Of a stretch of DNA of 64,000 bases, positions 554 to 38,467 are shown piece after piece. The stretch is from positions 1 through 64,000 of the forward strand of contig MCGT01000045.1 of NCBI GenBank assembly GCA_002104935.1, given 5' to 3'. Under the pieces are notes generated by a model. It was not told the DNA's origin. It searched no databases and saw only the letters and a program-made list of their open reading frames with translations. The stretch is from Hesseltinella vesiculosa (taxonomy: Eukaryota; Mucoromycota; Mucoromycetes; Mucorales; Cunninghamellaceae). The number at the start of each line of letters is the position of its first letter. Position 1 is the stretch's first letter. A program made the position numbers and the translations under genes.

Positions 554-664
554 CGATTCCAAGCCCAGTGTAACATTTTTGTCCGTGTATTCTCTGAAAC
601 TCCTCATTCAAATCATCCCCTTTTTTGTTTTTGCATTCGTTTAAACTTGTTAAGCAAGCGCCAG

Positions 665-1709
665 ATGTGCAAATCAATCTTGAACAACGAAACAATAAGA
701 AACATGATCGTGGAATCTATTATCGGTAACTTTGCTACTTCCATCCCTTCCTCCTCCTAACTTTAAACTAAAATTAGGGCCAAATGCAAAGGACAAATAC
801 ATCTCAAATCCAACTGAATGGCTGGATGGTCGGCGTGGGGACGTCCTCTATGCACCAATCGAGCCAGCTACAACTGCTTTACCCCCCATTGTGATTGAAA
901 TTCAAAACACAGTGGACGCCTCCTTCTTGCGCCGCTTGATCAGGTACTGCGGCAACGTTTTTGATCGGTATCATGTTGAACCTATTGCTCTGACGATTGG
1001 AATCCATGCAACAAGCGAGGACATAAGCACCAAGGTGGCAGCTGCGCCCAAGGTTCAATATTTTGTCCAGCTACCGAGCGACCATTGGGCACAGAAGCAC
1101 CTCTTCATGGACAGAAACACTCTTGCACCTTTCCTGGATCAAACGCCGTTGGCGCCTGCCGTGGCCATTGGTTATGTGCTCATGCAGCAACAAGCGTCTC
1201 TTCTTGGTCTCGAACACAAGGATGATCCCACTGTTGTTACCATTTATTCCATCGCCAAGGATGCCCTGCGAAATCAAATCAAGAACGAGGAAGAAACGAT
1301 TGATGTGTTGCGCACTGTCTGTCAAACCAACAAGGAGCAATACAAACGGATCTTGGACGCCATGATTGAGGATAATGTCAACAACAAGCGCCTGAAGTCC
1401 TATGTAGAGGATGGATTATTGTATGCTGACACATGTCTTCACAAATATTCACAGACACCGTCCACAGACACCTTGCCACAACCTCCAGACTTGCCAGAGT
1501 CCTCCAATGCCTCAGTGTTACGCACAATTGATCGCGATCATCAGGTCACAGACATGGAATATGCTGCTCGAGTGGTTGACCAGTGCAAGGCGGAAAAAAA
1601 GAGAATGAATTGGAAAAAATGTTATGATGACGGGCGCACAGCCGGATACTTTCGTACCTATAAAAATTGTATTACTTTGAAAAACACCTTTTATGCAAAG
1701 AAAAAATAA
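665..1709 (+). CDS. PD-(D/E)XK (Rpn/PDDEXK_2-like) nuclease candidate, copy U1
   Basis: Exons 665-725 and 778-1709 encode 330 aa. The intron 726-777 is 52 nt, starts GTAACT and ends ATTAG, with a CTAAC branch-like site. Without it the long frame has no ATG. With it the protein starts MCKSILNNETIRNMIVESII and runs into GPNAKDKYISNPTEWLDG. Around residues 36-60 the pattern GRRGDVLYAP...PPIVIEIQNT, then FLRRLIRYCGNVFDRYH, resembles the D...ExQ core of Rpn/PDDEXK_2 nucleases; catalysis is inferred from this pattern only. The tail is basic. Unlike the array-linked copies, U1 has its own upstream sequence next to a MULE end, and homology to the other copies starts at the ATG. U1 has Ser at the site where the array-linked copies have Leu (YIS/YILNPTEW). 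Confidence 0.7.
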
Positions 1710-2598
1710 ACAAGGCAAGGCACTGGCGATTATCGTAAAGAAATTGGCGATTAACATTGCCTACTTATTCTTCCCGGCGCTGCCTGAGAGAGTTACAATT
1801 TCAATCAAGGTCGCTTCTCCCTATTTTGTACTGGCATGGTGAAAATGGCCGATTTTTCATTTTTTTTTTAAGCTGGGGAATGGGGAGTGCCAAAAGGAAA
1901 CTGGCCAAAAGTTGACTGGGTGACCTTCACCAATGGTCCTGATTTTTCAGCATCATTATCATTCATTTGTTTGCGATCCCGTGCAACATTTCGCAACGAT
2001 CCGATCACTCAAAAGTGCTGCGCAGCGTTTGCTTTTTTTTTCAAAATGGAGAAAAAATTGGATCGCCATATTCAGCCTGAGCACCTGGATGGTGCCAACT
2101 GTCTCCAAAGAATCAAAACAATCCAAAAATACAAAGCTTCAATTTGATGAAGAAATTACGTAATTCGTTTGATTACGTCTCACTTGACGCTCGCACCGGC
2201 TTTCACTGTTTATCAATGGTCGTCCGGTGCACCGGCTTGTGATCCAATTTTTTCCATTTTGAAAAAAAAAAAAAAAGGAAATGCTTAGTAGCACTTTTGA
2301 ATGATCAGATCGATGCGAAATGTTGCACAGGATCGCAAACAAATGAATGATAATGATGCTGAAAAATCAGGACCATTGGTGAAGGTCACCCAGTCAACTT
2401 TTGGCCAGTTTCCTTTTGGCACTCCCCATTCCCCAGCTTAAAAAAAAATGAAAAATCGGCCATTTTCACCATGCCAGTACAAAATAGGGAGAAGCGACCT
2501 TGATTAAAATTGTAACTCTCTCAGGCAGCGCCGGGAAGAATAAGTAGGCAATGTTAATCGCCAATTTCTTTACGATAATCGCCAGTGCCTTGCCTTGT
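1710..2598. repeat. Palindromic spacer S1 between tail-to-tail nuclease genes
   Basis: Left and right arms (about 1710-2065 and 2246-2598) are inverted copies of each other, close to identical near the genes and more diverged towards the middle. An asymmetric core of about 180 bp (2066-2245) gives the spacer a readable orientation. With the flanking genes U1 and U2 it forms an inverted repeat of about 3 kb. Both arms include a dispersed-repeat motif containing AATGATAATGATGCT that recurs near 7630 and 23500. No gene is seen. Confidence 0.9.
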
Positions 2599-3643
2599 TT
2601 ATTTTTTCTTTGCATAAAAGGTGTTTTTCAAAGTAATACAATTTTTATAGGTACGAAAGTATCCGGCTGTGCGCCCGTCATCATAACATTTTTTCCAATT
2701 CATTCTCTTTTTTTCCGCCTTGCACTGGTCAACCACTCGAGCAGCATATTCCATGTCTGTGACCTGATGATCGCGATCAATTGTGCGTAACACTGAGGCA
2801 TTGGAGGACTCTGGCAAGTCTGGAGGTTGTGGCAAGGTGTCTGTGGACGGTGTCTGTGAATATTTGTGAAGACATGTGTCAGCATACAATAATCCATCCT
2901 CTACATAGGACTTCAGGCGCTTGTTGTTGACATTATCCTCAATCATGGCGTCCAAGATCCGTTTGTATTGCTCCTTGTTGGTTTGACAGACAGTGCGCAA
3001 CACATCAATCGTTTCTTCCTCGTTCTTGATTTGATTTCGCAGGGCATCCTTGGCGATGGAATAAATGGTAACAACAGTGGGATCATCCTTGTGTTCGAGA
3101 CCAAGAAGAGACGCTTGTTGCTGCATGAGCACATAACCAATGGCCACGGCAGGCGCCAACGGCGTTTGATCCAGGAAAGGTGCAAGAGTGTTTCTGTCCA
3201 TGAAGAGGTGCTTCTGTGCCCAATGGTCGCTCGGTAGCTGGACAAAATATTGAACCTTGGGCGCAGCTGCCACCTTGGTGCTTATGTCCTCGCTTGTTGC
3301 ATGGATTCCAATCGTCAGAGCAATAGGTTCAACATGATACCGATCAAAAACGTTGCCGCAGTACCTGATCAAGCGGCGCAAGAAGGAGGCGTCCACTGTG
3401 TTTTGAATTTCAATCACAATGGGGGGTAAAGCAGTTGTAGCTGGCTCGATTGGTGCATAGAGGACGTCTCCACGTCGACCATCCAGCCATTCAGTTGGAT
3501 TCAAGATGTATTTGTCCTTTGCATTTGGCCCTAATTTTAGTTTAAAGTTAGGAGGAGGAAGGGATGGAAGTAGCAGAGTTACCGATAATAGCCTCCACGA
3601 TCATGTTTCTTATTGTTTCGTTGTTCAAGATTGATTTACACAT
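2599..3643 (-). CDS. PD-(D/E)XK nuclease candidate, copy U2
   Basis: Exons on the minus strand are 3583-3643 and 2599-3530, split by a 52-nt intron (3531-3582, GTAACT...ATTAG). The product is 330 aa and differs from U1 at only a few sites (for example Ala for Ser in MIVEAII and Leu for Ser in YILNPTEW). The start lies at ATGTGTAAATCAATC. About 140 bp upstream the hairpin array begins, and the divergent copy U3 starts on its far side. The putative nuclease core (RRGDV...IVIEIQNT) is unchanged. The open frame that appears upstream on the opposite strand is an antisense shadow. Confidence 0.7.
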
Positions 3644-3784
3644 GAGGTCTGTGCCTGGCCTATGTTCATGGGGTAAAACGAATTCAAGAAGTTCTATTCA
3701 ACAGAAAAAAAAAAAAGAGTCAGTGTCTCTATTTCGCTGGGTCTGTTTCATATCACACCAGAAGCCATTGCTTAAGAGGAAGAG

Positions 3785-5848
3785 TTGGCGGAAATCGCCA
3801 ATATGTTGGCGGACATCGCCAATATATATTGGCGAAAGATTAGCTCTTTCCGCCAATTTCCGCCAATCTTTCGCCAGTAATATTGGCGGAAAACACCAAT
3901 GTCTTGGCGCATATCGCCAATATTACTGGCGAAAGATTAGCGCTTTCCGCCAATTTCCGCCAATCTTTCGCCAGTAATATTGGCGATATCACCAAGACAT
4001 TGGTGTTTACCGCCAATACTATCGCCACAAAATTGGCGATTGGCGCTTTCCGCCAATACTATCGCCAATAATATTGGCGATTGGCGCTTTCCGCCAATAC
4101 TATCGCCACAAAATTGGCGTAAACTTGGCGGAAAGCGCCAATACTATCGCCAATAATATTGGCGATTGGCGCTTTCTGCCAATACTATCGCCAATAATAT
4201 TGGCGATTGGCGCTTTCCGCCAATACTATCGCCACAAAATTGGCGATTGGCGCTTTCCGCCAATCTTTCGCCAATACCAATCGCCAATCTTTCGCCAGTA
4301 ATATTGGCGATATCACCAAGACATTGGTGTTTACCGCCAATACTATCGCCACAAAATTGGCGATTGGCGCTTTCCGCCAATACTATCGCCAATAATATTG
4401 GCGATTGGCGCTTTCCGCCAATACTATCGCCAATAATATTGGCGATTGGCGCTTTCTGCCAATACTATCGCCAATAATATTGGCGATTGGCGCTTTCGCC
4501 AATACTATCGCCAATAATATTGGCGATTGGCGCTTTCCGCCAATACTATCGCCAATAATATTGGCGATTGGCGCTTTCTGCCAATACTATCGCCAATAAT
4601 ATTGGCGATTGGCGCTTTCTGCCAATACTATCGCCACAAAATTGGCGATTGGCGCTTTCCGCCAATACTATCGCCAATAATATTGGCGATTGGCGCTTTC
4701 CGCCAATACTATCGCCACAAAATTGGCGATTGGCGCTTTCCGCCAATCTTTCGCCAATACCAATCGCCAATCTTTCGCCAATACCAATCGCCAATCTTTC
4801 GCCAATACCATATCGCCAATCTTTCGCCAGTAATATTGGCGATATCACCAAGACATTGGTGCTTTACCGCCAATACTATCGCCAATAATATTGGCGATTG
4901 GCGCTTTCCGCCAAGTTTACGCCAATTTTGTGGCGATAGTATTGGCGGAAAGCGCCAATCGCCAATTTTGTGGCGATAGTATTGGCGGAAAGCGCCAATC
5001 GCCAATATTATTGGCGATAGTATTGGCGGAAAGCGCCAATCGCCAATATTATTGGCGATAGTATTGGCGGAAAGCGCCAATCGCCAATATTATTGGCGAT
5101 AGTATTGGCGGAAAGCGCCAATCGCCAATATTATTGGCGATAGTATTGGCAGAAAGCGCCAATCGCCAATATTATTGGCGATAGTATTGGCGGAAAGCGC
5201 CAATCGCCAATATTATTGGCGATAGTATTGGCAGAAAGCGCCAATCGCCAATTTTGTGGCGATAGTATTGGCGGTAAACACCAATGTCTTGGTGATATCG
5301 CCAATATTACTGGCGAAAGATTGGCGATTGGTATTGGCGAAAGATTGGCGATTGGTATTGGCGAAAGATTGGCGGAAAGCGCCAATCGCCAATTTTGTGG
5401 CGATAGTATTGGCGGAAAGCGCCAATCGCCAATATTATTGGCGATAGTATTGGCAGAAAGCGCCAATCGCCAATATTATTGGCGATAGTATTGGCGCTTT
5501 CCGCCAAGTTTACGCCAATTTTGTGGCGATAGTATTGGCGGAAAGCGCCAATCGCCAATATTATTGGCGATAGTATTGGCGGAAAGCGCCAATCGCCAAT
5601 TTTGTGGCGATAGTATTGGCGGTAAACACCAATGTCTTGGTGATATCGCCAATATTACTGGCGAAAGATTGGCGGAAATTGGCGGAAAGCGCTAATCTTT
5701 CGCCAGTAATATTGGCGATATGCGCCAAGACATTGGTGTTTTCCGCCAATATTACTGGCGAAAGATTGGCGGAAATTGGCGGAAAGAGCTAATCTTTCGC
5801 CAATATATATTGGCGATGTCCGCCAACATATTGGCGATTTCCGCCAAC
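3785..5848. repeat. CGCCAAT/ATTGGCG hairpin array 1 (about 2.06 kb)
   Basis: The stretch consists almost wholly of the word CGCCAAT and its complement ATTGGCG, repeated every 7-12 bp. The commonest higher-order unit is 40 or 41 bp and contains GCGCTTTCCGCCAATAC, an ACTATCGCCA step, and either CCAATAATATTGG or CCACAAAATTGG. Rarer modules carry AATCTTTCGCCA, ATACCAATCGCC or CACCAAGACATTGGTG. The array as a whole is an inverted repeat centred near 4815, since its last 200 bp are the reverse complement of its first 200 bp. It fills the gap between divergent genes U2 and U3. Reading frames inside it are by-products of the repeat. Confidence 0.97.
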
Positions 5849-5987
5849 TCTTCCTCTTAAGCAATGGCTTCTGGTGTGATATGAAACAGACCCAGCGAAA
5901 TAGAGACACTGACTCTTTTTTTTTTTCTGTTGAATAGAACTTCTTGAATTCGTTTTACCCCATGAACATAGGCCAGGCACAGACCTC

Positions 5988-7056
5988 ATGTGTAAATCAA
6001 TCTTGAACAACGAAACAATAAGAAACATGATCGTGGAGGCTATTATCGGTAACTCTGCTACTTCCATCCCTTCCTCCTCCTAACTTTAAACTAAAATTAG
6101 GGCCAAATGCAAAGGACAAATACATCTTGAATCCAACTGAATGGCTGGATGGTCGACGTGGAGACGTCCTCTATGCACCAATCGAGCCAGCTACAACTGC
6201 TTTACCCCCCATTGTGATTGAAATTCAAAACACAGTGGACGCCTCCTTCTTGCGCCGCTTGATCAGGTACTGCGGCAACGTTTTTGATCGGTATCATGTT
6301 GAACCTATTGCTCTGACGATTGGAATCCATGCAACAAGCGAGGACATAAGCACCAAGGTGGCAGCTGCGCCCAAGGTTCAATATTTTGTCCAGCTACCGA
6401 GCGACCATTGGGCACAGAAGCACCTCTTCATGGACAGAAACACTCTTGCACCTTTCCTGGATCAAACGCCGTTGGCGCCTGCCGTGGCCATTGGTTATGT
6501 GCTCATGCAGCAACAAGCGTCTCTTCTTGGTCTCGAACACAAGGATGATCCCACTGTTGTTACCATTTATTCCATCGCCAAGGATGCCCTGCGAAATCAA
6601 ATCAAGAACGAGGAAGAAACGATTGATGTGTTGCGCACTGTCTGTCAAACCAACAAGGAGCAATACAAACGGATCTTGGACGCCATGATTGAGGATAATG
6701 TCAACAACAAGCGCCTGAAGTCCTATGTAGAGGATGGATTATTGTATGCTGACACATGTCTTCGCAAATATTCACAGACACCGTTCACACACACGATGCC
6801 ACAACCTCCAGACTTGCCAGAATCATCCAATGCCAATCACGAGTGGAAGGCCAGCACCTCAGTGTTACGCAAAATTGATCGCGATCATCAGGTCACAGAC
6901 ATGGAATATGCTGCTCGAGCGGTTGACCAGTGCAAGGCGGAAAAAAAGAGAATGAATTGGAAAAAATGTTATGATGACGGGCGCGCGGCTGGATACTTTC
7001 GTACCTATAAAAATTGGAATAGTTTGAAAAACACCTTTTATGCAAAGAAAAATTAA
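5988..7056 (+). CDS. PD-(D/E)XK nuclease candidate, copy U3 (variant 3' end)
   Basis: Exons 5988-6048 and 6101-7056, with a 52-nt intron, encode 338 aa. The first three quarters are the same as in U2. After codon 250 or so the gene diverges: TPFTHTMPQ replaces TPSTDTLPQ, eight residues (NHEWKAST) are added, and the end is NWNSLKNTFYAKKN. Downstream sequence also differs from the spacer next to the other copies. The gene is transcribed away from array 1. U3 and its duplicate U8 mark the right edge of the inverted-repeat cluster in each block. Confidence 0.7.
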
Positions 7057-7065
7057 ACAGGTCGT

Positions 7066-7353
7066 CATGTACCGGTGTTTGTCTGGGTAAACTTGTAACT
7101 GGACTTGATGAAAAAGGAAAAAGGAAACAGTATAGAAAAACCTTTTTTGGATGTTAGCGCACTATTAGGGATTATTGATAGACTTACCACTATAAGCAAG
7201 TGGTTTTTTTGTTATACGTGCAAAGAAAAAAAGAAAAGAGGGAGAGAAAAAAAAGGAGAAAAAAAGGGAAAAAAGGCAGGGAAAGAAAAGTAAAAAAATA
7301 TATAAACCTAAAAAAAAGGAGGGGGTAATGTCAATTCTTAACACCGGTACATG
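7066..7353. repeat. 288-bp segment bounded by a 14-bp inverted repeat (MITE-like)
   Basis: CATGTACCGGTGTT at 7066-7079 is exactly complementary to AACACCGGTACATG at 7340-7353. The interior is purine-rich and non-coding. The same segment is present in copy 2 at 37205-37491. No clear target-site duplication flanks it, so mobile origin is only a possibility. Confidence 0.4.
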
Positions 7354-7499
7354 GCGAGAAATGATACCATGGCTCTTTTTGACACCTCCATTTCCTTCAC
7401 TGAAAATTATCACCGTCAGCAAACCGTCATCAAGTTGATCATGGCACCGGCTTTTACTGTTCATCAACTGTCATGCGTGCACCAGTCAGGAGTCGAAAT

Positions 7500-7705
7500 C
7501 CGCTGTGCCGAGGCTGAATATGGCGATTCAATTTTTTCTTCTTTTTGAAAAAAAAAAAAAGCAAGCGCTGCACAGCGCTTATTGAGTGATTGGATCGGTA
7601 TGAGATTTTGTATGGATGCGCAAACACATGAATGATAATGATGCTAAAAAAATCAGGACCATTGGTGAAGGTCACTCAGTCAACTTTTGATTCTTTTCGT
7701 TTTGA
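7500..7705 (+). repeat. Diverged copy of the spacer-arm dispersed repeat
   Basis: The segment GGCTGAATATGGCGAT to GGTGAAGGTCACTCAG matches the arms of spacers S1-S3 (for example 2244-2405) at roughly four bases in five by eye, including the homopolymer A block, GATGCGCAAAC and AATGATAATGATGCT. It shows that the spacer arm is a member of a dispersed, non-coding repeat family. Confidence 0.65.
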
Positions 7706-8329
7706 CACCTCCGATTCTCCAGCTTACAAAAGAAAAACCGGTCGCTTTCACCAGAGGACCCCCAGGCCTTCTGATCAAAAACCGCAGAGCAAAAATGCTC
7801 CTTGTCAATTCACCCCAAATCGTCAATCGTCATTTAGCTAACAGGTAGAAGTGAAATTTAGCATGGGTGACTGTTATCATGGGTATTAGAAAATCCACAA
7901 ACGCTGCGGTTGGTGGTGTAAATCGGTGTAGATCCATACCAACATGTCAGATTCACCAGATCACAAAACGGAAAGCAGGCTTTTTCATTGGCTGGTTCCA
8001 ATTTCCCCTTTTTCTTTTTTTCAGTAGGTTCTCTTTTTTTTTCTTTTCGTCCTCTTCTTTTCTTCTTTGTTCATTAGCGCTCAGCTCTTGTTCGACCCAT
8101 TTTTTGATTACACAAAAGTGGACACACCACTGTGGTAAACTGCAGTGGAACCACTCACGAGAAGAAAACGGGGATTGATCCCCTCGCGGGCACAGCATTT
8201 AGCGCAGTAAATGAGATCTCAGGGCAAGTGACCCAGTACTCCTCGATTGGCCTCTACAGCAGTTTGGGACCACTAGTCCACTTTCTTTATTGCGACACAC
8301 ACGCTTCCAATGGCAAGAAGATGAAAAAC

Positions 8330-9821
8330 CTAGAACCAGAAGCTGACGCTGAAGCTTGTGTCTAGGGCCCTGACATAGTGCCACCATTTCGGCTAAAGGA
8401 AGAGGGAGCGGGGGGGGGGGGAGTGAGTGGTCATAACGACATGGGTGGAAGGTCTTACGGGTATATAGAGGACATCACCTGGTTCCAAAATGCATTCCAC
8501 ATAATTGGCTTGTTTGAACAAAGGATATGCCTCCAGATTGGGCTGATCCAGATCCACCTGCACACATAAAAAAACAATTAGACTGTGTTATATTTATGTA
8601 GCCACGCCTTTTTTTTTACCTGACTCGTATTGGCCATCATGCCTACATGGGGATACAGAGCATCTGTGTGATCAGGGGAGTACAGCCGGACGTATTTTCT
8701 CCCAACGACTTGGGCAAGGAGATTGTGGTATGGGTCGTGGTGCAACGGTGAGACAGTGTGTTTGGGGCCAAACCAGGCGTGCTTCAGTACATCCACTGGC
8801 GGTTGTTGGTACCATGGAGTGGCCTGAGGCTCAACAGAGCAGTAGTCTGGCACGGCAATGTCCTGTTCGAGCCGTGGTACTTGGTAAAACAGGTCGTGCT
8901 GGGCCAGGTAGGCAATAGGGGTATCGTCGGAGTTCTGGATGTGGTTGGTGATGAAGTCGTCCAGAGGCATCATGGTCTGGCGCCAGGCTGCATGTGTGTA
9001 GCTGCTGCCGATCTCGACAGGCACCAGGCGGTCACCCGCCACATTGCGAAGGTACGCCAAGTTTGCCCATGGCCGCGTTGATAAGGCGGGCCAGTGGTCA
9101 ATTAAGCCGCATCTCAGGTGTAGTGGCGTGGGCACCGGCAATTCGTTGACATGGTCTTCAAACCAAAGGAAATCAGGGGCTACGTTCAGCAATGTCAAAG
9201 GGTGATGAATGGTAGGCGCAGCATCGGCTTTGATGAGAGACAGAGCATCACCGACGGAGGCTGGCCAGTCGGTTTTCATTGGCCGCAGAGCCAGCTGGAT
9301 AGCATCCACCAAAGCCAGCGTCAGTGATCGTCGGTTGGGTCCTGGTGCACCACTCACCACAAGGGCTGTGTCTAATTGGTGGATAAGGCTGCGGTAAAAG
9401 TCATCAGTGTACAATGGATTCTGCTGGTGCATCAGCCAGACGACACGGGTCAAGGTGCCATCGATCAGCAATTGCCGCCAATGATCAGGAACGTCCTTGT
9501 ACGGGTAGGCATTGATTTTGTCATTGGCCTGATCCACGAGCGCATCAGTAAGCTGCAATGCTAACGTCACTGTGTCATGGGTAGGTGTCCCATTGCCGTT
9601 GCCTAATTCTTCCAAGGCTTTGCTGATTCTCCCCAGCAGATCAAGGACTGCCGCACCGCAAGGTTTTAAACCTACCTCAAGAAAAAAATAAAAATAGAAC
9701 GAGTGTGCTATTAGATCGCTTTCAATAGTTGTTTCGTTCTACACTTACCTGCAGCTGTATCCTTTTGTAAGAGCAGTTTCACTATGGCATTGGCACAATG
9801 TCGGATGTCTTGTGGCAGCAT
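8330..9821 (-). CDS. KDM8: JmjC-domain protein, KDM8/JMJD5-like (copy 1)
   Basis: Exons 9749-9821, 8620-9671, 8459-8557 and 8330-8392 on the minus strand give 428 aa, starting MLPQDIRHCANAIVK. The last third is a JmjC domain close to animal KDM8/JMJD5: TVSPLHHDPYHN carries the first iron ligands (His335, Asp337), GRKYVRLYSP and NTSQVDLDQP follow, and PKWWHYVRALD carries the distal ligand (His413), ending SFSVSFWF. Family members are Fe(II)/2-oxoglutarate oxygenases, with arginyl hydroxylase and disputed histone demethylase activity reported. The gene is head-to-head with the RAI1-like gene, with 70 bp between start codons. Copy 1 has LYPHVG where copy 2 has LYPHDG. No break is seen. Confidence 0.9.
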
Positions 9822-23900: not shown

Positions 23901-24026
23901 TTTTCTTCCTTTTTTTGTCAATCGCACTAGTTGCTTTATTATGTAAGCTGTAGTATGAGCTCACATAATAACCGCTCTATTTATTTTTATGCTGTATTAA
24001 TATCTTGTTTCCCAATTTATTACAGC

Positions 24027-27699: not shown

Positions 27700-28744
27700 A
27701 TGTGCAAATCAATCTTGAACAACGAAACAATAAGAAACATGATCGTGGAATCTATTATCGGTAACTTTGCTACTTCCATCCCTTCCTCCTCCTAACTTTA
27801 AACTAAAATTAGGGCCAAATGCAAAGGACAAATACATCTCAAATCCAACTGAATGGCTGGATGGTCGGCGTGGGGACGTCCTCTATGCACCAATCGAGCC
27901 AGCTACAACTGCTTTACCCCCCATTGTGATTGAAATTCAAAACACAGTGGACGCCTCCTTCTTGCGCCGCTTGATCAGGTACTGCGGCAACGTTTTTGAT
28001 CGGTATCATGTTGAACCTATTGCTCTGACGATTGGAATCCATGCAACAAGCGAGGACATAAGCACCAAGGTGGCAGCTGCGCCCAAGGTTCAATATTTTG
28101 TCCAGCTACCGAGCGACCATTGGGCACAGAAGCACCTCTTCATGGACAGAAACACTCTTGCACCTTTCCTGGATCAAACGCCGTTGGCGCCTGCCGTGGC
28201 CATTGGTTATGTGCTCATGCAGCAACAAGCGTCTCTTCTTGGTCTCGAACACAAGGATGATCCCACTGTTGTTACCATTTATTCCATCGCCAAGGATGCC
28301 CTGCGAAATCAAATCAAGAACGAGGAAGAAACGATTGATGTGTTGCGCACTGTCTGTCAAACCAACAAGGAGCAATACAAACGGATCTTGGACGCCATGA
28401 TTGAGGATAATGTCAACAACAAGCGCCTGAAGTCCTATGTAGAGGATGGATTATTGTATGCTGACACATGTCTTCACAAATATTCACAGACACCGTCCAC
28501 AGACACCTTGCCACAACCTCCAGACTTGCCAGAGTCCTCCAATGCCTCAGTGTTACGCACAATTGATCGCGATCATCAGGTCACAGACATGGAATATGCT
28601 GCTCGAGTGGTTGACCAGTGCAAGGCGGAAAAAAAGAGAATGAATTGGAAAAAATGTTATGATGACGGGCGCACAGCCGGATACTTTCGTACCTATAAAA
28701 ATTGTATTACTTTGAAAAACACCTTTTATGCAAAGAAAAAATAA
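27700..28744 (+). CDS. PD-(D/E)XK nuclease candidate, copy U4
   Basis: The duplicate of U1: exons 27700-27760 and 27813-28744 around a 52-nt intron, 330 aa, same protein as U1 including YISNPTEW. Like U1 it lies next to the MULE right end and lacks an array upstream, so its expression signals must differ from those of the array-linked copies. The putative nuclease core is intact. Confidence 0.7.
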
Positions 28745-29633
28745 ACAAGGCAAGGCACTGGCGATTATCGTAAAGAAATTGGCGATTAACATTGCCTACT
28801 TATTCTTCCCGGCGCTGCCTGAGAGAGTTACAATTTCAATCAAGGTCGCTTCTCCCTATTTTGTACTGGCATGGTGAAAATGGCCGATTTTTCATTTTTT
28901 TTTTAAGCTGGGGAATGGGGAGTGCCAAAAGGAAACTGGCCAAAAGTTGACTGGGTGACCTTCACCAATGGTCCTGATTTTTCAGCATCATTATCATTCA
29001 TTTGTTTGCGATCCCGTGCAACATTTCGCAACGATCCGATCACTCAAAAGTGCTGCGCAGCGTTTGCTTTTTTTTTCAAAATGGAGAAAAAATTGGATCG
29101 CCATATTCAGCCTGAGCACCTGGATGGTGCCAACTGTCTCCAAAGAATCAAAACAATCCAAAAATACAAAGCTTCAATTTGATGAAGAAATTACGTAATT
29201 CGTTTGATTACGTCTCACTTGACGCTCGCACCGGCTTTCACTGTTTATCAATGGTCGTCCGGTGCACCGGCTTGTGATCCAATTTTTTCCATTTTGAAAA
29301 AAAAAAAAAAAGGAAATGCTTAGTAGCACTTTTGAATGATCAGATCGATGCGAAATGTTGCACAGGATCGCAAACAAATGAATGATAATGATGCTGAAAA
29401 ATCAGGACCATTGGTGAAGGTCACCCAGTCAACTTTTGGCCAGTTTCCTTTTGGCACTCCCCATTCCCCAGCTTAAAAAAAAATGAAAAATCGGCCATTT
29501 TCACCATGCCAGTACAAAATAGGGAGAAGCGACCTTGATTAAAATTGTAACTCTCTCAGGCAGCGCCGGGAAGAATAAGTAGGCAATGTTAATCGCCAAT
29601 TTCTTTACGATAATCGCCAGTGCCTTGCCTTGT
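28745..29633. repeat. Palindromic spacer S2
   Basis: The duplicate of S1, in the same orientation, between tail-to-tail genes U4 and U5. The arms are inverted copies, with an asymmetric core at about 29101-29280. Confidence 0.9.
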
Positions 29634-30678
29634 TTATTTTTTCTTTGCATAAAAGGTGTTTTTCAAAGTAATACAATTTTTATAGGTACGAAAGTATCCG
29701 GCTGTGCGCCCGTCATCATAACATTTTTTCCAATTCATTCTCTTTTTTTCCGCCTTGCACTGGTCAACCACTCGAGCAGCATATTCCATGTCTGTGACCT
29801 GATGATCGCGATCAATTGTGCGTAACACTGAGGCATTGGAGGACTCTGGCAAGTCTGGAGGTTGTGGCAAGGTGTCTGTGGACGGTGTCTGTGAATATTT
29901 GTGAAGACATGTGTCAGCATACAATAATCCATCCTCTACATAGGACTTCAGGCGCTTGTTGTTGACATTATCCTCAATCATGGCGTCCAAGATCCGTTTG
30001 TATTGCTCCTTGTTGGTTTGACAGACAGTGCGCAACACATCAATCGTTTCTTCCTCGTTCTTGATTTGATTTCGCAGGGCATCCTTGGCGATGGAATAAA
30101 TGGTAACAACAGTGGGATCATCCTTGTGTTCGAGACCAAGAAGAGACGCTTGTTGCTGCATGAGCACATAACCAATGGCCACGGCAGGCGCCAACGGCGT
30201 TTGATCCAGGAAAGGTGCAAGAGTGTTTCTGTCCATGAAGAGGTGCTTCTGTGCCCAATGGTCGCTCGGTAGCTGGACAAAATATTGAACCTTGGGCGCA
30301 GCTGCCACCTTGGTGCTTATGTCCTCGCTTGTTGCATGGATTCCAATCGTCAGAGCAATAGGTTCAACATGATACCGATCAAAAACGTTGCCGCAGTACC
30401 TGATCAAGCGGCGCAAGAAGGAGGCGTCCACTGTGTTTTGAATTTCAATCACAATGGGGGGTAAAGCAGTTGTAGCTGGCTCGATTGGTGCATAGAGGAC
30501 GTCTCCACGTCGACCATCCAGCCATTCAGTTGGATTCAAGATGTATTTGTCCTTTGCATTTGGCCCTAATTTTAGTTTAAAGTTAGGAGGAGGAAGGGAT
30601 GGAAGTAGCAGAGTTACCGATAATAGCCTCCACGATCATGTTTCTTATTGTTTCGTTGTTCAAGATTGATTTACACAT
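29634..30678 (-). CDS. PD-(D/E)XK nuclease candidate, copy U5
   Basis: Minus-strand exons 30618-30678 and 29634-30565 with the 52-nt intron 30566-30617, 330 aa, the same protein as U2. It diverges from U6 across array 2. The putative core residues are present. Confidence 0.7.
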
Positions 30679-30818
30679 GAGGTCTGTGCCTGGCCTATGT
30701 TCATGGGGTAAAACGAATTCAAGAAGTTCTATTCAACAGAAAAAAAAAAAGAGTCAGTGTCTCTATTTCGCTGGGTCTGTTTCATATCACACCAGAAGCC
30801 ATTGCTTAAGAGGAAGAG

Positions 30819-32073
30819 TTGGCGGAAATCGCCAATATGTTGGCGGACATCGCCAATATATATTGGCGAAAGATTAGCTCTTTCCGCCAATTTCCGCCAA
30901 TCTTTCGCCAGTAATATTGGCGGAAAACACCAATGTCTTGGCGCATATCGCCAATATTACTGGCGAAAGATTAGCGCTTTCCGCCAATTTCCGCCAATCT
31001 TTCGCCAGTAATATTGGCGATATCACCAAGACATTGGTGTTTACCGCCAATACTATCGCCACAAAATTGGCGATTGGCGCTTTCCGCCAATACTATCGCC
31101 AATAATATTGGCGATTGGCGCTTTCCGCCAATCTTTCGCCAATACCAATCGCCAATCTTTCGCCAATACCAATCGCCAATCTTTCGCCAGTAATATTGGC
31201 GATATCACCAAGACATTGGTGTTTACCGCCAATACTATCGCCACAAAATTGGCGATTGGCGCTTTCCGCCAATACTATCGCCAATAATATTGGCGATTGG
31301 CGCTTTCCGCCAATACTATCGCCAATAATATTGGCGATTGGCGCTTTCCGCCAATACTATCGCCAATAATATTGGCGATTGGCGCTTTCCGCCAATACTA
31401 TCGCCAATAATATTGGCGATTGGCGCTTTCCGCCAAGTTTACGCCAATTTTGTGGCGATAGTATTGGCGGAAAGCGCCAATCGCCAATTTTGTGGCGATA
31501 GTATTGGCGGTAAACACCAATGTCTTGGTGATATCGCCAATATTATTGGCGATTGGTATTGGCGAAAGATTGGCGATTGGTATTGGCGAAAGATTGGCGG
31601 AAAGCGCCAATCGCCAATTTTGTGGCGATAGTATTGGCGGAAAGCGCCAATCGCCAATATTATTGGCGATAGTATTGGCAGAAAGCGCCAATCGCCAATA
31701 TTATTGGCGATAGTATTGGCGCTTTCCGCCAAGTTTACGCCAATTTTGTGGCGATAGTATTGGCGGAAAGCGCCAATCGCCAATATTATTGGCGATAGTA
31801 TTGGCGGAAAGCGCCAATCGCCAATTTTGTGGCGATAGTATTGGCGGTAAACACCAATGTCTTGGTGATATCGCCAATATTACTGGCGAAAGATTGGCGG
31901 AAATTGGCGGAAAGCGCTAATCTTTCGCCAGTAATATTGGCGATATGCGCCAAGACATTGGTGTTTTCCGCCAATATTACTGGCGAAAGATTGGCGGAAA
32001 TTGGCGGAAAGAGCTAATCTTTCGCCAATATATATTGGCGATGTCCGCCAACATATTGGCGATTTCCGCCAAC
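30819..32073. repeat. CGCCAAT/ATTGGCG hairpin array 2 (about 1.26 kb)
   Basis: The same architecture as array 1, with matching outer 200 bp or so on both sides but fewer inner units. The inverted-repeat centre is near 31440, at the TTTCCGCCAAGTTTACGCC segment. It lies between the start codons of U5 and U6. Confidence 0.97.
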
Positions 32074-32212
32074 TCTTCCTCTTAAGCAATGGCTTCTGGT
32101 GTGATATGAAACAGACCCAGCGAAATAGAGACACTGACTCTTTTTTTTTTTCTGTTGAATAGAACTTCTTGAATTCGTTTTACCCCATGAACATAGGCCA
32201 GGCACAGACCTC

Positions 32213-33257
32213 ATGTGTAAATCAATCTTGAACAACGAAACAATAAGAAACATGATCGTGGAGGCTATTATCGGTAACTCTGCTACTTCCATCCCTTCCT
32301 CCTCCTAACTTTAAACTAAAATTAGGGCCAAATGCAAAGGACAAATACATCTTGAATCCAACTGAATGGCTGGATGGTCGACGTGGAGACGTCCTCTATG
32401 CACCAATCGAGCCAGCTACAACTGCTTTACCCCCCATTGTGATTGAAATTCAAAACACAGTGGACGCCTCCTTCTTGCGCCGCTTGATCAGGTACTGCGG
32501 CAACGTTTTTGATCGGTATCATGTTGAACCTATTGCTCTGACGATTGGAATCCATGCAACAAGCGAGGACATAAGCACCAAGGTGGCAGCTGCGCCCAAG
32601 GTTCAATATTTTGTCCAGCTACCGAGCGACCATTGGGCACAGAAGCACCTCTTCATGGACAGAAACACTCTTGCACCTTTCCTGGATCAAACGCCGTTGG
32701 CGCCTGCCGTGGCCATTGGTTATGTGCTCATGCAGCAACAAGCGTCTCTTCTTGGTCTCGAACACAAGGATGATCCCACTGTTGTTACCATTTATTCCAT
32801 CGCCAAGGATGCCCTGCGAAATCAAATCAAGAACGAGGAAGAAACGATTGATGTGTTGCGCACTGTCTGTCAAACCAACAAGGAGCAATACAAACGGATC
32901 TTGGACGCCATGATTGAGGATAATGTCAACAACAAGCGCCTGAAGTCCTATGTAGAGGATGGATTATTGTATGCTGACACATGTCTTCACAAATATTCAC
33001 AGACACCGTCCACAGACACCTTGCCACAACCTCCAGACTTGCCAGAGTCCTCCAATGCCTCAGTGTTACGCACAATTGATCGCGATCATCAGGTCACAGA
33101 CATGGAATATGCTGCTCGAGTGGTTGACCAGTGCAAGGCGGAAAAAAAGAGAATGAATTGGAAAAAATGTTATGATGACGGGCGCACAGCCGGATACTTT
33201 CGTACCTATAAAAATTGTATTACTTTGAAAAACACCTTTTATGCAAAGAAAAAATAA
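32213..33257 (+). CDS. PD-(D/E)XK nuclease candidate, copy U6
   Basis: Exons 32213-32273 and 32326-33257, intron 52 nt, 330 aa, the same protein as U2 and U5. Together with U7 and array 3 it makes up the extra module that copy 1 lacks. At the 3' end it resembles U1/U2 (TPSTDTLPQ), not U3. Confidence 0.7.
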
Positions 33258-34146
33258 ACAAGGCAAGGCACTGGCGATTATCGTAAAGAAATTGGCGATT
33301 AACATTGCCTACTTATTCTTCCCGGCGCTGCCTGAGAGAGTTACAATTTTAATCAAGGTCGCTTCTCCCTATTTTGTACTGGCATGGTGAAAATGGCCGA
33401 TTTTTCATTTTTTTTTAAGCTGGGGAATGGGGAGTGCCAAAAGGAAACTGGCCAAAAGTTGACTGGGTGACCTTCACCAATGGTCCTGATTTTTCAGCAT
33501 CATTATCATTCATTTGTTTGCGATCCTGTGCAACATTTCGCATCGATCTGATCATTCAAAAGTGCTACTAAGCATTTCCTTTTTTTTTTTTTTTCAAAAT
33601 GGAAAAAATTGGATCACAAGCCGGTGCACCGGACGACCATTGATAAACAGTGAAAGCCGGTGCGAGCGTCAAGTGAGACGTAATCAAACGAATTACGTAA
33701 TTTCTTCATCAAATTGAAGCTTTGTATTTTTGGATTGTTTTGATTCTTTGGAGACAGTTGGCACCATCCAGGTGCTCAGGCTGAATATGGCGATCCAATT
33801 TTTTCTCCATTTTGAAAAAAAAAGCAAACGCTGCGCAGCACTTTTGAGTGATCGGATCGTTGCGAAATGTTGCACGGGATCGCAAACAAATGAATGATAA
33901 TGATGCTGAAAAATCAGGACCATTGGTGAAGGTCACCCAGTCAACTTTTGGCCAGTTTCCTTTTGGCACTCCCCATTCCCCAGCTTAAAAAAAAAATGAA
34001 AAATCGGCCATTTTCACCATGCCAGTACAAAATAGGGAGAAGCGACCTTGATTGAAATTGTAACTCTCTCAGGCAGCGCCGGGAAGAATAAGTAGGCAAT
34101 GTTAATCGCCAATTTCTTTACGATAATCGCCAGTGCCTTGCCTTGT
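33258..34146. repeat. Palindromic spacer S3, inverted relative to S1 and S2
   Basis: The length matches S1 and S2, but the asymmetric core (about 33611-33790) reads as the reverse complement: CCGGTGCACCGG comes before AATTACGTAATT here and after it in S1 and S2. The arms match those of the other spacers. Confidence 0.9.
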
Positions 34147-35191
34147 TTATTTTTTCTTTGCATAAAAGGTGTTTTTCAAAGTAATACAATTTTTATAGGT
34201 ACGAAAGTATCCGGCTGTGCGCCCGTCATCATAACATTTTTTCCAATTCATTCTCTTTTTTTCCGCCTTGCACTGGTCAACCACTCGAGCAGCATATTCC
34301 ATGTCTGTGACCTGATGATCGCGATCAATTGTGCGTAACACTGAGGCATTGGAGGACTCTGGCAAGTCTGGAGGTTGTGGCAAGGTGTCTGTGGACGGTG
34401 TCTGTGAATATTTGTGAAGACATGTGTCAGCATACAATAATCCATCCTCTACATAGGACTTCAGGCGCTTGTTGTTGACATTATCCTCAATCATGGCGTC
34501 CAAGATCCGTTTGTATTGCTCCTTGTTGGTTTGACAGACAGTGCGCAACACATCAATCGTTTCTTCCTCGTTCTTGATTTGATTTCGCAGGGCATCCTTG
34601 GCGATGGAATAAATGGTAACAACAGTGGGATCATCCTTGTGTTCGAGACCAAGAAGAGACGCTTGTTGCTGCATGAGCACATAACCAATGGCCACGGCAG
34701 GCGCCAACGGCGTTTGATCCAGGAAAGGTGCAAGAGTGTTTCTGTCCATGAAGAGGTGCTTCTGTGCCCAATGGTCGCTCGGTAGCTGGACAAAATATTG
34801 AACCTTGGGCGCAGCTGCCACCTTGGTGCTTATGTCCTCGCTTGTTGCATGGATTCCAATCGTCAGAGCAATAGGTTCAACATGATACCGATCAAAAACG
34901 TTGCCGCAGTACCTGATCAAGCGGCGCAAGAAGGAGGCGTCCACTGTGTTTTGAATTTCAATCACAATGGGGGGTAAAGCAGTTGTAGCTGGCTCGATTG
35001 GTGCATAGAGGACGTCTCCACGTCGACCATCCAGCCATTCAGTTGGATTCAAGATGTATTTGTCCTTTGCATTTGGCCCTAATTTTAGTTTAAAGTTAGG
35101 AGGAGGAAGGGATGGAAGTAGCAGAGTTACCGATAATAGCCTCCACGATCATGTTTCTTATTGTTTCGTTGTTCAAGATTGATTTACACAT
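34147..35191 (-). CDS. PD-(D/E)XK nuclease candidate, copy U7
   Basis: Minus-strand exons 35131-35191 and 34147-35078 around intron 35079-35130, 330 aa, the same protein as U2. It diverges from U8 across array 3, the shortest array. Confidence 0.7.
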
Positions 35192-35332
35192 GAGGTCTGT
35201 GCCTGGCCTATGTTCATGGGGTAAAACGAATTCAAGAAGTTCTATTCAACAGAAAAAAAAAAAAGAGTCAGTGTCTCTATTTCGCTGGGTCTGTTTCATA
35301 TCACACCAGAAGCCATTGCTTAAGAGGAAGAG

Positions 35333-35986
35333 TTGGCGGAAATCGCCAATATGTTGGCGGACATCGCCAATATATATTGGCGAAAGATTAGCTCTTTCCG
35401 CCAATTTCCGCCAATCTTTCGCCAGTAATATTGGCGGAAAACACCAATGTCTTGGCGCATATCGCCAATATTACTGGCGAAAGATTAGCGCTTTCCGCCA
35501 ATTTCCGCCAATCTTTCGCCAGTAATATTGGCGATATCACCAAGACATTGGTGTTTACCGCCAATACTATCGCCACAAAATTGGCGATTGGCGCTTTCCG
35601 CCAATACTATCGCCACAAAATTGGCGTAAACTTGGCGGAAAGCGCCAATCGCCAATATTATTGGCGATAGTATTGGCAGAAAGCGCCAATCGCCAATATT
35701 ATTGGCGATAGTATTGGCGGAAAGCGCCAATCGCCAATTTTGTGGCGATAGTATTGGCGGTAAACACCAATGTCTTGGTGATATCGCCAATATTACTGGC
35801 GAAAGATTGGCGGAAATTGGCGGAAAGCGCTAATCTTTCGCCAGTAATATTGGCGATATGCGCCAAGACATTGGTGTTTTCCGCCAATATTACTGGCGAA
35901 AGATTGGCGGAAATTGGCGGAAAGAGCTAATCTTTCGCCAATATATATTGGCGATGTCCGCCAACATATTGGCGATTTCCGCCAAC
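35333..35986. repeat. CGCCAAT/ATTGGCG hairpin array 3 (about 0.65 kb)
   Basis: The shortest array. It keeps the same outer modules as arrays 1 and 2 (including CACCAAGACATTGGTG and AATATATATTGGCG) and only a few 40/41-bp units around its centre near 35640, where GGCGTAAACTTGGCGGAAAG marks the turn. It lies between the start codons of U7 and U8. Confidence 0.97.
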
Positions 35987-36126
35987 TCTTCCTCTTAAGC
36001 AATGGCTTCTGGTGTGATATGAAACAGACCCAGCGAAATAGAGACACTGACTCTTTTTTTTTTTTCTGTTGAATAGAACTTCTTGAATTCGTTTTACCCC
36101 ATGAACATAGGCCAGGCACAGACCTC

Positions 36127-37195
36127 ATGTGTAAATCAATCTTGAACAACGAAACAATAAGAAACATGATCGTGGAGGCTATTATCGGTAACTCTGCTAC
36201 TTCCATCCCTTCCTCCTCCTAACTTTAAACTAAAATTAGGGCCAAATGCAAAGGACAAATACATCTTGAATCCAACTGAATGGCTGGATGGTCGACGTGG
36301 AGACGTCCTCTATGCACCAATCGAGCCAGCTACAACTGCTTTACCCCCCATTGTGATTGAAATTCAAAACACAGTGGACGCCTCCTTCTTGCGCCGCTTG
36401 ATCAGGTACTGCGGCAACGTTTTTGATCGGTATCATGTTGAACCTATTGCTCTGACGATTGGAATCCATGCAACAAGCAAGGACATAAGCACCAAGGTGG
36501 CAGCTGCGCCCAAGGTTCAATATTTTGTCCAGCTACCGAGCGACCATTGGGCACAGAAGCACCTCTTCATGGGCAGAAACACTCTTGCACCTTTCCTGGA
36601 TCAAACGCCGTTGGCGCCTGCCGTGGCCATTGGTTATGTGCTCATGCAGCAACAAGCGTCTCTTCTTGGTCTCGAACACAAGGATGATCCCACTGTTGTT
36701 ACCATTTATTCCATCGCCAAGGATGCCCTGCGAAATCAAATCAAGAACGAGGAAGAAACGATTGATGTGTTGCGCACTGTCTGTCAAACCAACAAGGAGC
36801 AATACAAACGGATCTTGGACGCCATGATTGAGGATAATGTCAACAACAAGCGCCTGAAGTCCTATGTAGAGGATGGATTATTGTATGCTGACACATGTCT
36901 TCGCAAATATTCACAGACACCGTTCACACACACGATGCCACAACCTCCAGACTTGCCAGAATCATCCAATGCCAATCACGAGTGGAAGGCCAGCACCTCA
37001 GTGTTACGCAAAATTGATCGCGATCATCAGGTCACAGACATGGAATATGCTGCTCGAGCGGTTGACCAGTGCAAGGCGGAAAAAAAGAGAATGAATTGGA
37101 AAAAATGTTATGATGACGGGCGCGCGGCTGGATACTTTCGTACCTATAAAAATTGGAATAGTTTGAAAAACACCTTTTATGCAAAGAAAAATTAA
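36127..37195 (+). CDS. PD-(D/E)XK nuclease candidate, copy U8 (variant 3' end)
   Basis: The duplicate of U3: exons 36127-36187 and 36240-37195, 338 aa, with the same extra NHEWKAST block and the end NTFYAKKN. Two substitutions set it apart: ATSKDIS for ATSEDIS and FMGRNTL for FMDRNTL. Neither touches the putative catalytic pattern. Confidence 0.7.
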
Positions 37196-38467
37196 ACAGG
37201 TCGTCATGTACCGGTGTTTGTCTGGGTAAACTTGTAACTGGACTTGATGAAAAAGGAAAAAGGAAACAGTATAGAAAAACCTTTTTTGGATGTTAGCGCA
37301 CTATTAGGGATTATTGATAGACTTACCACTATAAGCAAGTGGTTTTTTTGTTATACGTGCAAAGAAAAAAAGAAAAGAGGGAGAGAAAAAAAGGAGAAAA
37401 AAAGGGAAAAAAGGCAGGGAAAGAAAAGTAAAAAAATATATAAACCTAAAAAAAAGGAGGGGGTAATGTCAATTCTTAACACCGGTACATGGCGAGAAAT
37501 GATACCATGGCTCTTTTTGACACCTCCATTTCCTTCACTGAAAATTATCACCGTCAGCAAACCGTCATCAAGTTGATCATGGCACCGGCTTTTACTGTTC
37601 ATCAACTGTCATGCGTGCACCAGTCAGGAGTCGAAATCCGCTGTGCCGAGGCTGAATATGGCGATTCAATTTTTTCTTCTTTTTGAAAAAAAAAAAAAGC
37701 AAGCGCTGCACAGCGCTTATTGAGTGATTGGATCGGTATGAGATTTTGTATGGATGCGCAAACACATGAATGATAATGATGCTAAAAAAATCAGGACCAT
37801 TGGTGAAGGTCACTCAGTCAACTTTTGATTCTTTTCGTTTTGACACCTCCGATTCTCCAGCTTACAAAAGAAAAACCGGTCGCTTTCACCAGAGGACCCC
37901 CAGGCCTTCTGATCAAAAACCGCAGAGCAAAAATGCTCCTTGTCAATTCACCCCAAATCGTCAATCGTCATTTAGCTAACAGGTAGAAGTGAAATTTAGC
38001 ATGGGTGACTGTTATCATGGGTATTAGAAAATCCACAAACGCTGCGGTTGGTGGTGTAAATCGGTGTAGATCCATACCAACATGTCAGATTCACCAGATC
38101 ACAAAACGGAAAGCAGGCTTTTTCATTGGCTGGTTCCAATTTCCCCTTTTTCTTTTTTTCAGTAGGTTCTCTTTTTTTTTCTTTTCGTCCTCTTCTTTTC
38201 TTCTTTGTTCATTAGCGCTCAGCTCTTGTTCGACCCATTTTTTGATTACACAAAAGTGGACACACCACTGTGGTAAACTGCAGTGGAACCACTCACGAGA
38301 AGAAAACGGGGATTGATCCCCTCGCGGGCACAGCATTTAGCGCAGTAAATGAGATCTCAGGGCAAGTGACCCAGTACTCCTCGATTGGCCTCTACAGCAG
38401 TTTGGGACCACTAGTCCACTTTCTTTATTGCGACACACACGCTTCCAATGGCAAGAAGATGAAAAAC
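37196..38467. other. Intergenic, no gene supported (copy 2)
   Basis: The counterpart of 7057-8329. It repeats the 14-bp inverted-repeat segment (37205-37491) and the diverged spacer-arm repeat (about 37638-37843). No additional gene is seen. Confidence 0.6.
37205..37491. repeat. Segment bounded by a 14-bp inverted repeat (copy 2)
   Basis: CATGTACCGGTGTT at 37205-37218 and its complement at 37478-37491. One base shorter than the copy at 7066-7353 because of a purine-tract difference. Confidence 0.4.

Follow-up and report, generated by a model that had tools for sequence, protein, structure and literature searches.

Palindromic copies of a putative PD-(D/E)XK-like nuclease gene around hairpin-repeat arrays in Hesseltinella vesiculosa

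Contig MCGT01000045.1 of Hesseltinella vesiculosa (Mucorales; assembly GCA_002104935.1) was analysed over a stretch of 64,000 nucleotides, here called the window, which contains eight copies of one gene and three arrays of hairpin repeats (Table 1). By our reading the gene has three exons, and the six intact copies encode a product of 350 or 358 amino acids, in place of the 330 first proposed. The original prediction, that copies of the gene stand head-to-head across three arrays of CGCCAAT and ATTGGCG in an overall mirror image, is confirmed in the window, and the limits given for the pairs (2599, 7056, 29634, 33257, 34147 and 37195) coincide exactly with the ends of open frames when the stop codon is counted. 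Six copies flank the arrays as claimed, but the total is eight, including two that are 5'-truncated, at 665 and 27700. The mirror symmetry does reach into the gene arms: positions 27700-35191 form a 7.5-kb self-inverse segment with 97.5% identity. Blocks of the region also recur in a direct segmental duplication (1-4434 versus 27037-31448, and 5513-11606 versus 35650-41728). The contig start falls inside the repeat. An F-box gene cluster adjoins the window copies, and a MULE transposase domain (PF10551, E = 3.2e-10) lies directly beside c4, between 162-bp inverted repeats that differ in sequence from the arrays.

Table 1. Gene copies, arrays and MITE sequences in the window
Feature	Positions	Strand	Remarks
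copy c1	665..1712	+	5' end truncated: without array, without exon 1
MITE, first copy	1745..2555	.	long inverted repeats; centre of c1/c2; limits by eye
copy c2	2599..3768	-	intact, 350 aa, 3 exons
array 1	3785..5849	.	CGCCAAT/ATTGGCG hairpin repeats, self-inverse
copy c3	5864..7056	+	intact, 358 aa
half-MITE arm 3' of c3	7441..7820	+	inner end faces gene, as read from inverted pairs
copy c4	27700..28744	+	5' end truncated
MITE, second copy	28780..29590	.	centre of c4/c5; limits by offset from first copy
copy c5	29634..30802	-	intact, 350 aa
array 2	30819..32073	.	
copy c6	32089..33257	+	intact, 350 aa; 1483 bp of arm identical to c5 arm
MITE, third copy	33301..34111	.	centre of c6/c7; limits by offset from first copy
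copy c7	34147..35316	-	intact, 350 aa
array 3	35333..35986	.	one long stem when folded
copy c8	36002..37195	+	intact, 358 aa
half-MITE arm 3' of c8	37579..37958	+	limits by offset from first copy

The window holds 283 copies of the motif CGCCAAT, compared with an expectation of 10.9, and none of 100 shuffles reached 283. Each array is an inverted repeat, as had been predicted: the left half and the reverse-complemented right half agree in 955 of 1067, 549 of 652 and 303 of 336 alignment columns for arrays 1, 2 and 3, respectively. The predicted fold of array 3 has an energy of -417.8 kcal/mol, where 20 shuffles average -101.7. The statement that the arrays are made almost only of the two motifs was too strong, exact copies (motif counts multiplied by 7 bp) covering about 49%, 46% and 37% of arrays 1, 2 and 3, respectively; near-copies make up a large share of what remains. 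In the window, arrays are located 5' of the genes only, and array 1 ends 14 bp before the assigned start codon of c3. This position, together with arrays at the same place in other lineages, is consistent with a role of the array as a shared promoter, so far as position and sequence can indicate.

The copies are also arranged tail-to-tail, and the palindromes formed in this way are centred on a second kind of sequence, a high-copy MITE, such that arrays and MITEs alternate as palindrome centres along the window. The arms of the first MITE, at about 1712-2064 and 2241-2595, are 94.7% identical, and its relatives are present in high copy number. The tail-to-tail palindrome at C2 likewise has a MITE as its centre. 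Inverted repeats occur at family loci on C45 (1432 bp), C25 (1019 bp), C2 (a palindrome of 2931 columns) and C85 (646-bp arms); inverted duplication recurs at C45, C25 and C2, and near-identical neighbouring copies were inverted in every case examined. An inverted repeat of at least 80 bp is lacking in 7 of the 20 locus entries; among controls, one was present in a single tile of the 10 from the window (where the last tile was short) and in 6 of 7 MITE loci, inverted repeats being common at the MITEs of this genome. Within palindrome 1, the arms of c2 and c3 show no mismatches inside, and the outer 300 bp hold 16 mismatches and a 24-bp indel. We also considered the MITE as a non-autonomous form of the nuclease element, hinted at by locus L044, where, as judged by eye, an array and a gene are enclosed by inverted arms that include MITE sequence. 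This reading was dropped because in the window and at C2 it is the whole MITE that lies at the gene tails.

The gene is one of a family scattered over the H. vesiculosa genome, with 79 exon-level matches and, by our own count, about 39 loci outside C40. Homologues were detected in Lichtheimia hyalospora (43% identity) and Phascolomyces articulosus and in one metagenome protein. The second of the protein searches was limited to the 7997 candidates with the most shared words. Several relatives contain internal stops within the match. In the protein, three residues forming a D...ExQ pattern (D22, E41 and Q43) are invariant in all 16 aligned sequences, 15 of which share no more than 21-53% identity with the protein of the window, and in all five of an overlapping alignment; the main alignment left out L032, which has internal stops, L033 and L036. 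In the last of these, a member of the C25 pair that lies outside the 16, Val replaces the catalytic Glu.

The pattern is in register with D63, E82 and Q84 of E. coli RpnA. PDDEXK_2 is linked to Rpn. Profiles of the family and of E. coli Rpn proteins align with these residues in register, though weakly (probability 37% in hhalign, with P = 3.5e-4; F-box control 0.1%). The proposal of an Rpn-like nuclease draws support from the invariant residues but not from the Pfam PDDEXK models, and the HMM comparison with PD-(D/E)XK families that had been put forward as a check yielded no such match. Specifically, Pfam gave no PDDEXK or Transposase_31 match for 16 family members at E <= 1, no PDDEXK or transposase family for the full protein at E <= 10, and no DDE transposase domain for the family protein, to which that search was confined. 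A search of the genome with PF12784 was uninformative, control genomes being equally without a match. AlphaFold2 models were poor overall (pLDDT 47.7 with three sequences and 53.6 with five), the putative nuclease region reaching about 39-58; its order of helix-strand-strand-helix-strand nevertheless fits PD-(D/E)XK, and the C-terminal 50 or so residues are predicted to form three helices with a pLDDT of about 90. A structure search of the PDB with the low-confidence model returned nothing at E <= 0.001. BamHI, EndoMS, BbvCI and PspGI were among the 50 Foldseek matches listed for this model, all at E > 1, and neither Foldseek nor VIA-align 2 gave a trustworthy match; in one of them, most rows align helices 169-237 only.

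The C-terminal part varies between otherwise identical copies. Recent copies are under weak selection (four pairs, each with few changes, gave omega values of 0.28-0.83), with 11 non-synonymous and 4 synonymous codon differences between c2 and c3, and dN/dS is saturated between distant paralogues.

Arrays recur in front of other family genes. Tandem repeats with a TRF score of at least 100 lie within 800 bp 5' of 10 of the 20 genes compared, or 8 of 20 when L033 (a T-rich unit) and L045 (a purine-rich repeat near the start codon) are excluded, whereas none of 46 control tiles attained even a score of 50 (Fisher p = 2e-5 for 8 of 20). The other 10 genes have no 5' array of this score. A stricter count, in which L030/L031 and L039/L044 were each collapsed and tiles from MITE loci added, gave 6 of 18 genes versus 2 of 78 tiles (p = 4e-4); both positive tiles are among the 32 from MITE loci and stem from a single L056 repeat divided between them, and the controls as a whole (46 window and 32 MITE-locus tiles) are not matched promoters. 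The 20 genes are those with enough flank, drawn from the better-matching part of the roughly 39 loci outside C40, and their starts were assigned mostly by eye; L053 was dropped for want of an assigned start, and L020, L037, L041, L049 and L052 as repeats or pieces of counted loci, or as fragments. Family genes are repeat-rich in general, as four of the 20 (L033, L040, L043 and L051) carry repeats of score at least 100 over the first 1900 bp counted from the start codon, mostly protein repeats as judged by eye.

The motifs of the arrays differ between lineages. Four were searched across the genome, those of L032, L040 and L050 lying outside the set; two were restricted to their own genes and two almost entirely restricted to them. 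All 37 genomic places of AAGTAACGCAAGTAACG and all 18 of GGTTACCATTTTCACG are just 5' of their own genes, and 28 of 33 AATCGGTAAG pairs genome-wide are at C34/C31. The genome search for CGCCAAT arrays beside the gene, suggested by the original prediction, placed 98 of the 100 CGCCAAT...ATTGGCG matches listed (102 per strand in total) in the window arrays. Among the other arrays of the family are those of AATCGGTAAG and of GTAACGCAA. No gene match lies near one array, at C12:376954. A core motif common to all arrays was sought in TTACCGAT. With up to one mismatch it has 4, 23, 10, 7 and 16 hits in the 800 bp 5' of L029, L032, L040, L030 and L031, compared with a maximum of 3 in 46 control tiles. 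On 13 test loci it was equalled by none of 60 permuted motifs; it has no hit at L033, L035, L039, L044, L046, L047, L048, L050 and L051. A single core motif for all arrays was accordingly rejected, and the case for a shared ancestral motif is only partial, since TTACCGAT is found at five loci and absent from nine. Read by eye, CGCCAAT may derive from TTACCGAT via transitions.

At L030 and L031 (C34 and C31), a family gene lies between inverted arrays at both ends, with unrelated flanks, and the alignment of the two loci runs from array to array only (97.8% over 2403 columns). Long inverted ends of short repeats and dispersed copies with sharp borders, the features of foldback elements, were found in this one pair. 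The original characterization as a selfish, foldback-type unit is supported at C34/C31, but not for the single window genes, which have a 5' array only; arrays at both ends occur in one lineage, the others having them 5' only as far as the fetched flanks reach. No convincing target-site duplication was found at L030, L031 or L039: L030 has none, L039 poly-A matches only, and L031 an AT-rich 9-bp direct repeat of a kind also given by 8 of 200 shuffles.

In literature searches, from which repeat libraries were out of scope, we found no description of this family or of a named fungal element of such build. Like foldback elements and Galileo of the P superfamily, it has long, internally repetitive inverted ends; unlike them, it has no Pfam transposase domain and a PD-(D/E)XK-like protein, and its array is mostly 5' only and lineage-specific in sequence. 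The long-TIR repeats of Galileo hold sites for the THAP domain of its transposase (PMC3688188). Tm1, a Mutator/Foldback element of root-knot nematodes, resembles the family in its composite inverted repeats of variable length and MITE-like relatives (PMC3169594), whereas a Mutator-type transposase and 9-bp target duplications belong to Tm1 and neither is established here. With Rpn (YhgA-like, PF04754) and PDDEXK_2 (PF12784) the family shares the D...ExQ in register with RpnA and a variable C-terminal part, such variation being described for Rpn in PMC10327210; it differs in having no Pfam match, three exons, its own 5' array and a predicted three-helix C-terminal domain. Palindromic gene amplification by foldback priming is similar in that an inverted repeat seeds inverted duplicates: in yeast without Sae2 or Mre11, breaks near inverted repeats drive inverted duplication (PMC10622511). 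Here, by contrast, the gene that is duplicated carries the repeat within its own unit, and the centres alternate between two kinds.

Our preferred reading, which we consider to have an even chance of being right, is that of a selfish PD-(D/E)XK-like element family of Mucorales in which the array serves as promoter and probable self-target and breaks are repaired as palindromes; this appears to be a foldback-type selfish element of a kind not yet described. The main competitor, unlikely in our judgement yet deserving weight, holds that host replication and repair turn hairpin arrays and MITEs into palindromes, with the nuclease gene a passenger and the enzyme without a part. Both kinds of window centre are strong inverted repeats, the MITE also centres the C2 palindrome, inverted duplications of yeast are seeded by inverted repeats near breaks (PMC10622511), and the catalytic Glu is lost in L036; yet such passive fragility leaves unexplained why different arrays sit at the same 5' place in several lineages and why D, E and Q are invariant in 16 sequences, 15 of them at 21-53% identity. 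That the assembler joined false palindromes seems scarcely credible: the contig does begin within the repeat, and the c5 and c6 arms show no difference over 1483 bp, but palindromes 1 and 3 have fixed arm differences, the array halves differ, and three other palindromic loci have arm identities of 90-97%.

Mobilization in trans by another transposase, such as that of a MULE, with the nuclease as an accessory gene, is improbable. The MULE domain within inverted repeats beside c4, and the precedent of Tm1, foldback-like with a Mutator-type transposase and 9-bp duplications (PMC3169594), would suit it together with the 9-bp repeat of L031; that repeat, however, is AT-rich and reproduced by 8 of 200 shuffles, L030 has none, and the inverted repeat flanking the MULE is unlike the arrays. 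Even more doubtful is a host family of diversifying, defence-like nucleases, comparable to bacterial Rpn, whose promoters acquired expanding binding sites by chance. An array in promoter position wherever a lineage has one, the C-terminal variation among otherwise identical copies (as in Rpn, PMC10327210) and the adjoining F-box cluster accord with it, whereas the array-bounded unit of L030/L031 with its unrelated flanks and the internal stops of several relatives do not.

For the selfish element family, we infer self-targeting and transposition as follows. Each element would encode a D...ExQ nuclease with a C-terminal three-helix domain, several lineages having a private 5' array, and this domain may bind the element's own array by analogy with the THAP domain of Galileo and its long TIRs. 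The nuclease would nick or break DNA there, and the broken hairpin array, or a neighbouring MITE hairpin, could prime foldback repair that yields head-to-head or tail-to-tail duplicates. Gene conversion from arm to arm and slippage would preserve arm identity and alter the length of the array. The array would double as promoter for one or two divergent copies, and a gene flanked by two arrays would form a unit movable as a foldback element.

More speculatively, and to be viewed as a tentative extension, the family could represent a hitherto unknown class of selfish elements in eukaryotes, with an Rpn-like PD-(D/E)XK nuclease as sole enzyme. Such an element would spread by cutting the hairpin array within its own promoter and be copied by host repair as palindromes, its enzyme and array co-evolving so fast that private arrays and self/non-self recognition arise. 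If the nuclease recognizes its own array, the genome would offer natural enzyme-target pairs of one family, in which the co-evolution of a DNA-binding protein with its repeat target is directly readable and array swaps could serve as a test. To our knowledge, the origin of foldback ends is an open question, and the family would, if this reading is true, suggest a possible route by which they arise. It would also provide a cause, beyond a correlate, of palindromic gene amplification in eukaryotes.

Several genes of the window's putative nuclease family carry private tandem arrays on their 5' side, the chief novel result of the analysis. Among 20 family genes with enough flank, an array with a TRF score of at least 100 is present in the 800 bp upstream of 10, or of 8 after exclusion of two genes whose array units resemble simple purine- or T-rich sequence; none of the 46 control tiles contains an array with a score of 50 or more. 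In 4 of the 20 genes an array scoring at least 100 lies within the 1900 bp that begin at the start codon; judged by eye, these are mostly protein repeats. Genome-wide, all 37 places with AAGTAACGCAAGTAACG lie 5' of the gene at locus L048 and all 18 with GGTTACCATTTTCACG lie 5' of the L039 and L044 genes, while 28 of 33 AATCGGTAAG pairs map to contigs C34/C31 and the other five to one gene-less array on C12. For CGCCAAT...ATTGGCG (102 matches per strand in all), 98 of the 100 matches listed fall in the window arrays, and the remaining two represent one place on C19. The four searched motifs go with the gene and, being located only or nearly only at their own genes, are therefore not general satellites. 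The C12 array, with no family gene match nearby, lies by eye just 3' of a putative methionine sulfoxide reductase gene, with a MITE arm ~210 bp further.

Array motifs, inverted duplications and other features (window positions unless a contig, C, or a locus elsewhere in the genome, L, is named)
Feature	Location	Size and identity	Arrangement
Array motif CTTACCGATTTTC	L030, L031		
Array motif TATCGTTAAC	L032		
Array motif GGTTACCATTTTCAC	L039, L044		
Array motif CATCGGTGACA	L040		
Array motif GTAACGCAA	L048		
Array motif ATTCCGTTTCC	L050		
Array motif CGCCAAT	window		
Gene-less array, C34/C31 motif	L064 about 1453-1580 (C12 about 376952-377079)		
Inverse gene duplication	C45	1432 columns, 90%	tail-to-tail
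Inverse gene duplication	C25	1019 columns, 97%	head-to-head
Inverse gene duplication	C2	2931-column palindrome, 95%	tail-to-tail
Inverted arms around array and gene	C85	646 bp, 99%	
Family gene L029/L049	C30:246196-248691		3' end inverted ~1.3 kb downstream
MITE	1745-2555; 7340-7840; many genomic places	~1 kb	two long inverted arms
RAI1 gene	9880-11500		in segmental duplication
F-box gene cluster	11765-23098	members ~40% identical	five long reading frames, one direction
MULE-domain element	23739-27588	162-bp inverted repeats, 98%	ends ~110 bp ahead of c4

The window is the initial 64 kb of contig C40 (168,711 bases) in a genome of 27 Mb and 85 contigs. Its nuclease gene, which we read as three exons, occurs in the block order c1> MITE <c2 array1 c3> ... 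c4> MITE <c5 array2 c6> MITE <c7 array3 c8>; inside each block every neighbouring pair of copies is inverted, head-to-head over an array and tail-to-tail over the high-copy MITE. Six copies encode intact proteins of 350 aa (c2, c5, c6, c7) or 358 aa (c3, c8), and c1 and c4 lack the 5' part. In the window CGCCAAT reaches 26 times its expected frequency. The 41-bp array unit contains, by eye, two small hairpins, and each entire array likewise forms an inverted repeat; for array 3, folding into a single stem is predicted. Array 1 ends 14 bp upstream of the c3 start codon as we assigned it.

A Cupin_8 gene and the RAI1 gene (PF08652, itself a PD-(D/E)XK nuclease family, for which we claim no link to the nuclease finding) lie in the direct segmental duplication to which both blocks belong. 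Five of the F-box genes, of which the first was run against Pfam, have long reading frames that all point one way, unlike the nuclease copies, which are inverted. The MULE-domain element encodes a transposase domain (PF10551, E 3.2e-10), and its right end also forms the contig start, ahead of c1.

The original prediction of head-to-head nuclease copies at arrays in the window describes a real arrangement, and a larger one than it envisaged. Comparison of the 1189-bp arms of c2 and c3 shows 16 mismatches and one 24-bp indel, all within the outer 300 bp; further inward there are no mismatches, and two gap columns fall in the last bin, which covers intron 1, exon 1 and the array edge. By our own arithmetic, assuming independent sites, the odds of 16 evenly scattered mismatches all landing in the outer 300 bp are ~3e-10, and this crowding speaks against a simple assembly mirror. 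The pattern is consistent with conversion between the arms close to the centre, or with a duplication that is recent and has a recombination point. In palindrome 2 (c5/c6) the arms are identical, and this one could be an assembly product. In exon 3 of c2 and c3 the first 221 codons are identical; of the last 97, 15 differ (11 non-synonymous, 4 synonymous), and 8 further codons are inserted. Otherwise near-identical, c2/c5/c6/c7 and c3/c8 differ only in this C-terminal part; the C-terminal domain of bacterial Rpn proteins is likewise reported to vary (PMC10327210).

A protein search of the genome itself yielded 79 exon-level matches to the family; beyond it, protein searches found homologues only in Lichtheimia hyalospora, Phascolomyces articulosus and one metagenome protein. 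D22, E41 and Q43 are invariant in 16 aligned family sequences, 15 of which are 21-53% identical to the first; in L036, second of the two head-to-head genes at C25 and outside this alignment, Val replaces the catalytic Glu that its partner keeps. Aligned with four E. coli Rpn proteins, these residues land on RpnA D63, E82 and Q84; the match is weak (37% probability), with an F-box control far lower (0.1%). In RpnA, D63A and E82A are reported to abolish recombination, toxicity and SOS induction, and Q84A to abolish recombination with toxicity kept (PMC5350276). The last ~50 residues are predicted with high confidence to form a three-helix domain, which may be a DNA reader. Searched against Pfam, the protein was not placed in a known family.

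Inverted duplication recurs at family loci, and at C2 the palindrome centre is a MITE of the window kind. No inverted repeat of at least 80 bp was detected in 7 of the 20 family-locus entries. Among window control tiles, 1 of 10 has one, surrounding the MULE transposase domain; 6 of 7 MITE loci do, as expected for that repeat. The MITE searches returned 701 and 928 first-look candidates, of which 40 in each search were scored. At L044, arms that by eye contain MITE sequence enclose the nuclease gene and its array. The L029/L049 gene, where inverted repeats of 134-352 bp exceed 99% identity, was apparently split by an inversion.

L030 and L031, on separate contigs, are 97.8% identical across 2403 columns; both ends of the match lie inside mutually inverted CTTACCGATTTTC arrays, and no alignment match was reported for the flanks. 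Bounded by inverted arrays, with unmatched flanks, this unit has foldback-element anatomy. The nuclease element appears to work like foldback elements, but each window gene has an array on the 5' side only, Pfam lends no support, and no target duplication was established at the family loci examined.

A break in or next to a hairpin array would probably be followed by fold-back and primed synthesis, and replication would leave a head-to-head pair; the MITE, in the same role, would probably give rise to tail-to-tail pairs. Breaks near inverted repeats are reported to act this way in Sae2- or Mre11-deficient yeast (PMC10622511). The repeats might simply be fragile and acted on by host repair alone, which we consider the less likely reading; it leaves unexplained why, in several lineages, differing array sequences occupy an equivalent position ahead of one and the same gene. 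In the active alternative that we favor, the element's own nuclease would make the break. In Galileo (P superfamily), repeats within the long inverted ends are reported to hold binding sites for the THAP domain of the transposase (PMC3688188); here, the predicted C-terminal domain may be what reads the array.
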